Origin: Sulfurospirillum oryzae
GTDB lineage: Bacteria > Campylobacterota > Campylobacteria > Campylobacterales > Sulfurospirillaceae
Direction: 5' to 3'
Length of the DNA: 64,000 bases
Assembly: GCF_025770725.1 (NCBI RefSeq)
Contig: NZ_JANZKZ010000004.1
Location: forward strand, 124,001-188,000
Under the pieces are notes generated by a model that saw nothing but the letters and a program-made list of their open reading frames with translations, was not told the origin of the DNA and did not search any database. This document shows, in pieces, positions 51,610 through 53,441 of this stretch (positions are counted from its first letter, which is position 1; each line of letters starts with the position of its first letter). Position numbers and translations under genes: made by a program.

Positions 51610-51622
51610 AGATTATTGGAAT

Positions 51623-51652
51623 GGAAGAGTATAGGTAAAAATGTATTCTTCC
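51623..51652 (+). terminator. Possible terminator after trpB
   Basis: GGAAGAGTA (51623-51631) pairs with TATTCTTCC (51644-51652) with one G-T wobble and a 12-nt loop. The T tract after it is poor, so this is tentative. Confidence 0.4.
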
Positions 51653-51684
51653 TCATGCCTTTGATTTTATAAAAAAGGTCAATC

Positions 51685-52206
51685 ATGTTACGAACTATTT
51701 TAAGTATCTTTGTAGTGATAATAAGCGTGAGCGCTTATGCTAATGAGCCAGAAATCATCAATGGGCACATTCTCCCTCCTGAGCCTGATCCAAAAATAAA
51801 TAATGCAACCCTCTTGGGAATAGACAGTAATCACAATGGTGTTAGAGATGATGTTGAGAGAAAAATATTAACCACCTATACTAAACCTGTACAAGCAGAA
51901 CTAATGCTCTTCCAGGCAAGAGCGCATCAAGAGATGCTTCATGATCCCGTAGGATCTGCCATAGCCTCTCAAAAGAAAATACAACGAGTAGGCGATTGTA
52001 GTATGTATCTAATGGATAAGGGTATAGATATTGCAGAACGCGTAGAGTTCACTAAAAAAGCAATGTACAATACCAAAGCAAGGGTAAAGGCTTATCGTGA
52101 TTACAATATGGCTTTAAGCGGAGGCGTCTACGGGAGTGGACCGGCTGATTGGACTGAAAAAGCATGTGACTTTGATGTAAAAGCCCTCTTGAAGACACAA
52201 CCATAA
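51685..52206 (+). CDS. Secreted protein with a DxNxNG calcium-loop-like motif, unknown function
   Basis: 173 aa. A signal peptide (about residues 1-19, ISVSAYA) is followed by EIINGHILPPEPDPKINNATLLGIDSNHNGVRDDVERKI. The D-x-N-x-N-G-x-R-D-D-x-E run is the acidic loop seen in thrombospondin-type-3/dockerin-like calcium sites and starts many secreted proteins of unknown role. The rest is helical, with two cysteines (GDCSMYL, EKACDFD) that may pair. I do not recognise the family further. AAAGG lies upstream of the ATG. Confidence 0.7.
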   Translation: MLRTILSIFVVIISVSAYANEPEIINGHILPPEPDPKINNATLLGIDSNHNGVRDDVERKILTTYTKPVQAELMLFQARAHQEMLHDPVGSAIASQKKIQRVGDCSMYLMDKGIDIAERVEFTKKAMYNTKARVKAYRDYNMALSGGVYGSGPADWTEKACDFDVKALLKTQP

Positions 52207-52259
52207 AAACTTTTACATCTTTGCATTACATTGAGAAGTGGCAAATTGCGAGATAATTA

Positions 52260-52288
52260 TTGACAAAAAAGTACGATAATCGTATAAT
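52260..52288 (+). promoter_or_regulatory. Perfect consensus promoter with operator in the spacer
   Basis: TTGACA (52260-52265), a 17-bp spacer, TATAAT (52283-52288): both hexamers match the sigma-70 consensus exactly, which is rare in this AT-rich window. The spacer contains TACGAT-A-ATCGTA (52272-52284), an inverted repeat that overlaps the -10, a position where a bound protein would block polymerase. Transcript start would be near 52295, shortly before GGAG at 52301-52304 and the GTG start. Confidence 0.85.
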
Positions 52289-52310
52289 TTTAATAAAAAA
52301 GGAGCCTCCA

Positions 52311-52694
52311 GTGAAAGCAAAAGAAATCGCTTCTATCTTTGGTGTTCCTCAATCTACGTTAAATGAATGGAAAAAAGAGGGTCATTCCAAAAAAGTACTC
52401 GCTGATTTTTTGACGAACGTCGATAAAGAATCTATCTTAAACTTATACAAATCAGCAACAGCTTACGATATGCTCGTATCAACGGTTAATACCTCTATTG
52501 GCAATGAGAATAAGCACCTTGGCGCTCATGATATTAAAAAGCTTCTTATGGGAAAAATTCCCCAAAATCCTCTAGAAAAATACGCCTTGGACATTATCAA
52601 AACGGAAGCTCTCAAAGTTGAGATAGAAGATTTTGCGAGCCACTTTAAAATACCAATGAAAAAAGTGAATAAAGTGCTCAATGATGGATACTAA
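52311..52694 (+). CDS. Small HTH protein, putative antitoxin/autorepressor
   Basis: 127 aa from GTG 52311 (GGAG at 52301-52304); an in-frame TTG at the promoter is rejected because it lies in the -35. The N-terminus KAKEIASIFGVPQSTLNEWKKEG is a helix-turn-helix. The remainder is helical with a second HTH-like end (IEDFASHFKIPMKKVNKVLNDGY). No catalytic motif is seen. It overlaps the nucleotidyltransferase gene by 14 bp. By context it is the repressor/antitoxin of the pair; it is much shorter than typical AbiEi. Family not recognised. Confidence 0.75.
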   Translation: MKAKEIASIFGVPQSTLNEWKKEGHSKKVLADFLTNVDKESILNLYKSATAYDMLVSTVNTSIGNENKHLGAHDIKKLLMGKIPQNPLEKYALDIIKTEALKVEIEDFASHFKIPMKKVNKVLNDGY

Positions 52695-53382
52695 AACAAA
52701 TACTTTCATCCTTGAGACGTATGCTAAGCAAATTAAAGCACTGAATGATCTCATCAGTGAGTGCAAAGAATTGCTACCGCATAACGATCTCTCTTTGATA
52801 CGATTCGGCGGGGGAACGGCATTAGCGATTTATCATTTTCAACATCGGAAAAGTTTTGATATTGATCTCTTCGTGACCGATCCGCAAATACTAAGTTACC
52901 TGAGTCCAAAACATTGGTTGGAAGACTCTTATTTGTTTAATACTGCAAAGTATATTGACCTCGCCAATCACATCAGGCTGCTTACAAAAGAAAATATCAA
53001 AATTGACATTTTAGTATCGCAAGATTTTATAGGCCATGCTATCATCGATGATAGTCAAGCTTTTTTCCATGAGAGTATTTATGTTGAAAGTTTGGAAGAT
53101 ATTTTGGCGAAGAAAATCGTCTATCGAAAAGATCAAAACAAATCCAGAGATATTATTGACCTCAGTGTTGCACTTTATCATGATGCCTCTATTTTTGAGA
53201 AGCTTTTAAACTCCGGTGCCGTTACGCTGCAAGATTTACACGACTTACATGATGCACTGACGAGACTCGATACTCAAAAGTATTTAGATGAAATTGATCT
53301 TGTTGAGCCTATAGAATTTTACATAGATATTTCAAAAAATGCACCAGCATCCATTAAACAAGCTATTGGCAAAATCATTTAA
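52681..53382 (+). CDS. AbiEii-like nucleotidyltransferase, putative toxin
   Basis: 233 aa. Nucleotidyltransferase core: LSLIRFGGGTALAIYHFQHRKSFDIDLFVTD, with the G43-G45/T46 loop and D60/D62, and a third acid D109 in KENIKIDILVSQ. ESLEDILAKKIVYRKDQNKSRDIIDLSVAL (K144/K145, R149, R156, D157, D160) matches the AbiEii/MenT pattern in which the toxin transfers nucleotides to tRNA or another target. All recognisable motifs are intact. ATG 52681 or 52684 lies inside the antitoxin gene, so translation is coupled. A phage-defence or growth-control role is inferred from family and layout. Confidence 0.82.
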   Translation: MMDTKTNTFILETYAKQIKALNDLISECKELLPHNDLSLIRFGGGTALAIYHFQHRKSFDIDLFVTDPQILSYLSPKHWLEDSYLFNTAKYIDLANHIRLLTKENIKIDILVSQDFIGHAIIDDSQAFFHESIYVESLEDILAKKIVYRKDQNKSRDIIDLSVALYHDASIFEKLLNSGAVTLQDLHDLHDALTRLDTQKYLDEIDLVEPIEFYIDISKNAPASIKQAIGKII

Positions 53383-53441
53383 CCTCTCTTTATAAAAAAA
53401 ATTGCTAAAATCTCCTCTTATTTCTTTCTGAAAGTAACGCA

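Follow-up and report, generated by a model that had tools for sequence, protein, structure and literature searches.

Between trpB and mqnE of Sulfurospirillum oryzae lies a compact two-gene operon (52260–53382, forward strand, in the 64-kb stretch of DNA that was analysed, here called the window), which an earlier note, made from the letters and a list of reading frames, had described as toxin-antitoxin-like. The questions raised by this locus are whether its two genes, here termed A and B, form such a pair, which of them would be the toxin, and to which family the other belongs.

The two genes and their promoter

Gene B starts at an ATG at 52681 (or 52684), ends at 53382, and codes for a 233-aa AbiEii/DUF1814 nucleotidyltransferase, the putative toxin. 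It had been claimed to be an overlapping nucleotidyltransferase with AbiEii/MenT motifs, and this was borne out. Its reading frame overlaps that of A (52681 versus the A stop codon at 52694), and it matches Pfam AbiEii PF08843 with E=7e-12 (46.2 bits versus a curated cut-off of 22.5), PADLOC AbiEii with E=7e-9 and DUF6036 with E=9e-6. The nucleotidyltransferase motifs GG, DhD, K and D are all invariant in 36 homologues. They comprise motif I, GGGTAL (residues 43–48; 52807–52824), motif II, S58-F-D60-I-D62 (52852–52866), and motifs III/IV, K144-K145 ... R156-D157-x-x-D160 (53110–53160), and the invariant residues include G43-G44-G45-T46, H55, R56, S58, D60, D62, K144, K145, R149, R156, D157 and D160. 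The S58-x-D60-x-D62 spacing equals T39-x-D41-x-D43 of MenT1 and the K145-D157-D160 spacing equals K137-D149-D152; S58 occupies the MenT phosphoacceptor position, T39 being the auto-phosphorylation site of MenT1 (PMC11375011).

Searches of the PDB with the sequence of B, as a single sequence or as a profile, returned nothing significant, and MenT and JHP933 were found by fold only. The AlphaFold2 model of B (pLDDT 94.4) gave as its best Foldseek matches H. pylori JHP933 (4o8s, E=2.5e-6), MenT1 (8an4, E=2.4e-5), MenT4 (6y56, E=5e-5) and a second H. pylori nucleotidyltransferase entry, with a probability of 1.00 for MenT1, MenT4 and JHP933 and TM-scores of 0.4–0.5. By domain, B belongs to the AbiEii/MenT toxins, as judged from profile, motif and model. 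In a Helicobacter homologue of B (L007:1718-2518), residues 241–267 at the C-terminus match the corresponding tail of the H. pylori kinase CtkA (3akj, E=8e-7), the remainder of the two proteins being unrelated.

Gene A (52311–52694, forward strand, GTG start) encodes a putative antitoxin and autorepressor, an assignment drawn from its homologues, its AlphaFold2 model and dN/dS. It had been described as a 127-aa HTH protein; the length stands, but the HTH is confined to the N-terminal third (residues 1–48; 52311–52454), the predicted operator-binding part, and the portion conserved across its relatives is the C-terminal ~75 aa, which fall in the core domain (residues 50–127; 52458–52691), the predicted toxin-neutralising part. 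Structure prediction, which the earlier note had proposed, yielded an all-helical model of nine helices (AlphaFold2, mean pLDDT 90.4), with four in the HTH module (residues 3–10, 14–20, 28–36 and 39–48) and five in the core, and no PDB fold match at E<=0.001. The HTH module matches phrog_32162 (E=6e-6). Core residues N60, S62, I63, H69, Y91 and E99 are invariant across 36 homologues, and the core has no meaningful family match in Pfam, NCBIfam, PADLOC or PHROGs. A survey of the open-access literature yielded no account of such a family of antitoxins.

AbiE, which has been ranked fourth in abundance among phage defence systems (PMC11375011), is a two-gene operon that regulates itself and has inverted repeats in its promoter (PMC7319586, PMC3985639); AbiEi exerts the autoregulation through these repeats (PMC7319586). 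The pair in the window resembles AbiE (AbiEi-AbiEii, type IV) in its toxin family (PF08843), in its bicistronic layout with the repressor gene first, in its promoter inverted repeat and in its carriage on mobile DNA. An ordinary type IV AbiE, in which A would be an AbiEi of reduced size opposing B without contact, would account for the match of AbiEii models to B and for the shared operon architecture. However, AbiEi (COG5340) consists of a winged HTH and a large C-terminal domain and uses 23-bp repeats, whereas A has an unrelated five-helix core and a different, 13-bp operator, and no AbiEi model of Pfam or PADLOC matches A or its longer relatives. Since this AbiEi feature was examined and is absent from A, the system is taken not to be AbiE, as the earlier note had suggested for the antitoxin, and we consider the type IV reading quite improbable. 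AbiE is moreover an abortive infection system, which A and B may or may not be.

The size of A had also been offered as the mark of an unrecognised antitoxin class; its separation from AbiEi stands, but size as the mark does not, given the precedent of the 68-aa MenA1 (PMC10435456). MenA1 binds two MenT1 protomers and promotes MenT1 auto-phosphorylation (PMC10435456, PMC11375011), and it has no DNA-binding domain (PMC10435456). The M. tuberculosis MenAT1 system is thus alike in that its DUF1814 toxin is paired with an antitoxin that is short and bears no relation to AbiEi, and MenT1 has the S/T-x-D-x-D and K-D-D spacing in common with B. It differs, when compared by description, in that MenA1 is 68 aa long, predicted to be disordered and devoid of a DNA-binding domain, whereas A has a confidently modelled core plus an HTH. 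What is distinctive on these comparisons is not size but that the predicted family is modular, its core domain being separate from DNA-binding domains that can be exchanged.

The operon opens with a -35 hexamer TTGACA (52260–52265) and a -10 hexamer TATAAT (52283–52288), both kept in sister copies. The exact TTGACA-17-TATAAT promoter that had been claimed, with 12 of 12 consensus matches and a spacer of 17, is the only such match in the 64-kb window, where shuffles give an expectation of 0.02. A TTG start listed at 52260 among the open reading frames was rejected as a start codon, the triplet being part of the -35 box. The ribosome binding site of A, AGGAG (52300–52304), is kept in relatives, and no Rfam RNA was found in the 50–56 kb portion of the window. 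The inverted repeat said to lie between the hexamers, TACGAT-A-ATCGTA (TACGATAATCGTA, 13 bp, 52272–52284), is present and in part overlaps the -10 box, of which it covers the first two bases. The sequence TACGANNNTCGTA occurs once in the window versus 0 expected, TACGANNNTCGTATAAT has a single mismatch-free occurrence in the 2.63-Mb genome, and a pattern search found the 17-base operator plus -10 pattern to be unique in that genome.

Linkage and mobility of the pair

A scan for B across the genomes of 84,980 species returned 54 loci, nearly all in Campylobacterota. In nearly all loci uncut by contig ends A lies directly upstream of B, with overlapping or abutting reading frames, and for 55 of the 64 distinct cores B lies no more than 400 nt away. 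The core was matched in 41 of 397 sampled genomes of the phylum and, in the order Desulfobacterales, in seven of 194, one match being weak and several being accompanied by B. Relatives of B were not found among phages or viral contigs, nor were relatives of A among viral contigs.

In the window, the pair has trpB, a small ORF of secreted type and mqnE as its neighbours, and the gap between trpB and mqnE (51610–53441) had been proposed as an insertion site of accessory DNA. This proved well founded: in eight sister genomes the two genes are 91–134 bp apart with nothing between them, and elsewhere in the genus the gap holds other cargo. Among the other genomes of the genus whose gap could be read, none has A and B at this place. 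The sister-genome comparison that the earlier note had suggested gave a patchy distribution, a close A being present in eight of 24 genomes of the genus versus 24 of 24 for mqnE, which excludes an invariant housekeeping unit, the case that the earlier note had set against its own reading. Gap contents vary across loci L093–L115, and in L105 a RelE/ParE-like pair was recognised by eye.

The borders of the mobile unit could be placed by comparing copies. In seven copies from the genus the mean pairwise identity is 0.37 before the -35 box and rises there to 0.82, sister copies diverge immediately past the stop codon of B, and in the copies of other genus members the homology is limited to the stretch from the -35 box through that stop codon, which overlaps the conserved mqnE leader (TTTAACCTCTC). 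By this alignment evidence the promoter, the candidate operator, A and B are one mobile cassette. A 173-aa secreted-type ORF upstream of the cassette (51685–52206) has no family match and lies outside the homologous unit of the sister copies. Plasmid-borne copies occur in Sulfurimonas aquatica and on H. pylori pHel5, and a Sulfurospirillum plasmid holds a truncated A beside an integrase and IS21. On the latter (pSulSP, L025:4001-4225) the promoter, the operator and the HTH half of A remain and the core and B are gone, the remnant adjoining the integrase and the IS21 element. Relative to five sister copies, the dN/dS of A is 0.07–0.13 and that of B 0.06–0.08; both genes are under purifying selection (0.06–0.13), and the window copy is therefore not decaying.

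Forms of the core and the candidate operator

The core was encountered in several forms. It stands alone, at 75–100 aa and without the short HTH module, in Helicobacter, some Sulfurimonas, Arcobacter caeni and the Desulfobacterales loci L180 and L182; it lies behind a short HTH, as in the window protein, in Sulfurospirillum and Sulfurimonas; and it lies behind the same kind of HTH with an added C-terminal extension in Arcobacter and relatives, where B is more distant (about 25–30% identical). In some further homologues it follows a Cro/C1-type HTH (PF13443, E=3e-6; PF01381), and the N-terminus of L062 matches annotated HigA antitoxins. The likeness to HigA is thus a HigA-like or Cro/C1 N-terminal HTH fused to the A core (L054–L062 and L178), and the difference is that A in the window has another, shorter HTH and that its partner is a nucleotidyltransferase and not a RelE-type RNase. 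In a maximum-likelihood tree of B, the forms of A cluster by type, several of the N-terminal type labels having been set by eye (e.g. L037, L041, L043 and L058). Core-only members are found inside the HTH clade (L038 and L042) and beside the XRE-type Desulfobacterales (L022), so that there has been more than one gain or loss of the DNA-binding part.

These core-only loci also bear on the idea of a mobile regulator-enzyme unit outside toxin-antitoxin biology, in which B would be, for example, a nucleotidyltransferase modifying a small molecule under a dedicated repressor. JHP933, the best fold match of B (PDB 4O8S, E=2.5e-6) and a plasticity-zone gene of the same phylum, has been proposed to be LinA-like (PMC4125220), although it is about 16% identical to B and was missed by PDB sequence searches. 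The closest characterised fold relatives of B nevertheless include MenT toxins, and cores that have no DNA-binding domain are still linked to B, which implies that the core does more than repress. We therefore judge a regulator-enzyme unit to be unlikely.

The candidate operator can be followed across the same set of loci. Sulfurospirillum copies carry TACGA-NNN-TCGTA at the equivalent promoter position, and Sulfurimonas copies, in which A is ~42% identical, carry TACGAATATCGTATAAT or TCCGAATATCGTATAAT amid otherwise unrelated flanks. Allowing one mismatch at most, the site was found in 16 of 18 short-HTH loci scanned and in seven of 12 HTH-plus-extension loci versus none of 14 core-only and none of 12 XRE-type loci; L027, which is among the misses of the scan through frame choice, carries the site with one mismatch. 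The candidate operator thus keeps company with the DNA-binding module rather than with the toxin, which is the pattern that repression by A of its own promoter would produce. This gives comparative support to the autoregulatory operator suggested in the earlier note, and the repeat at 52272–52284 would be the operator bound by the short HTH of A. Upstream of the XRE-type loci L054, L056, L058, L158 and L161 there is a recurrent AT-rich near-palindrome, TATGATAATATTA plus its complement, a possible operator for antitoxins of the XRE type. A 57-aa protein in L023 (reverse strand, ~1300–1670) consists of the short HTH module only, and its gene directly follows an apparent CRISPR repeat array (GTTAGAATTTGCCTTTTAGGCTTTGAAA repeated).

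On proteobacterial plasmids, 87-aa or about 165-aa XRE-HTH proteins precede AbiEii genes (L186, L187, L189 and L190; L184, L185, L188 and L192) and show a faint LxTVN...E...F pattern resembling the A core. Against the small and the XRE-fused partners the core scored 7.5 and 1.2 bits (HMMER) versus a best of 9.2 in 1400 shuffles, and the hhalign probability was 1.5%. Homology to these proteins, collinear but weak, was set aside as a lead only. It is tentatively conceivable, though we lean against it, that the A core is a widespread unnamed antitoxin domain and a main alternative to AbiEi for DUF1814 toxins, reaching from Campylobacterota and Desulfobacterales to the 87-aa and XRE-fused AbiEii partners of Proteobacteria and Clostridia, with a constant toxin-binding core and with DNA-binding domains and operators that are exchanged as sets.

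Roles of the two genes

Which gene is the toxin was approached through the pattern of lesions. B is broken or missing beside an intact A in about 16 loci: it has stops, frameshifts or deletions in L002/L028, L015, L026, L052, L057, L061, L064, L158 and L179, and it is absent from L005, L012, L014, L017, L018, L020 and L024. Among the loci examined no case was confirmed in which B is intact and A broken; where A seems to be absent, the locus either runs into a contig end (L035) or is a distant member (L067, L068 and L074), and in L067 and L068 A was detected with a longer profile. Were lesions proportional to gene length, this bias toward B would arise by chance with a probability of 0.008–0.09, so that it is moderately significant, supportive rather than decisive. 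Some lesions of B may be assembly errors, and the several intact A genes without B are compatible with an antitoxin but can be no proof of one.

The same pattern weighs on a reversal of roles after the manner of HEPN/MNT, in which the nucleotidyltransferase B would be the antitoxin, modifying and silencing a toxin A. Nucleotidyltransferases are described as antitoxins in MntA/HepT (PMC7641770), and A is small and all-helical. But the lesions and losses fall on B beside an intact A, the gene order puts A, with its DNA-binding modules, at the head of the operon, and B has the motifs and the fold of AbiEii and MenT, which are toxins. Such a reversal appears highly improbable.

The reading that we favour, and think probable, is that A and B form a mobile toxin-antitoxin pair in which a DUF1814 toxin is matched with an antitoxin that is modular, regulates its own operon and belongs to no classified family. 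The claim of a toxin-antitoxin-like pair is in keeping with two genes that are linked, mobile, and of which A is kept when B is lost. From these comparisons we infer the toxicity of B, its tRNA target, direct contact between A and B, the chemistry at S58 and operator binding by A. B would act as an AbiEii/MenT-type nucleotidyltransferase toxin that most likely modifies tRNA ends and stops growth, and A would be both its antitoxin and a repressor. The conserved core of A would bind and inactivate B; it would probably lie over the active site, and it might also stimulate auto-phosphorylation at S58. We prefer direct binding by the core because, among short antitoxins, MenA1 offers the closest functional parallel. 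The short HTH would bind TACGA-NNN-TCGTA between the -35 and -10 boxes, so that A in excess would shut off the strong promoter.

Few partners of DUF1814 toxins beyond the AbiEi type and MenA1 have been studied so far, and the putative antitoxin domain defined here is unnamed in any library searched. Its core exists in natural variants with and without DNA-binding parts, the candidate operator following the DNA-binding part, and with such variants neutralisation could be studied apart from autoregulation. A likely role is also offered for unannotated genes on chromosomes and plasmids of Helicobacter, Sulfurimonas and Arcobacter.

A further possibility is that the core acts promiscuously as an antitoxin domain, neutralising toxins of other kinds, zeta kinases among them, as well as B. 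It was suggested by L012, where B has given way to a zeta toxin (PF06414, E=4e-21) while both flanks are retained, and by L014, where one follows an A region that is 94% identical. In L169, L170 and L173, members of the same zeta family nevertheless occur without A and are followed by a small gene of their own, L172 has a zeta gene beside a decayed A, and an orphan A left behind when B was replaced is the simpler account. With intact cores beside zeta toxins in two loci but related zeta loci that have no A, the idea was set aside as very unlikely. In both L012 (1495-2596) and L014 (1534-2716) a zeta toxin and a small downstream gene replace AbiEii behind an intact A, and in L012 the sequences flanking the zeta toxin are common to the A-B locus L004, as in an in-place toxin swap.
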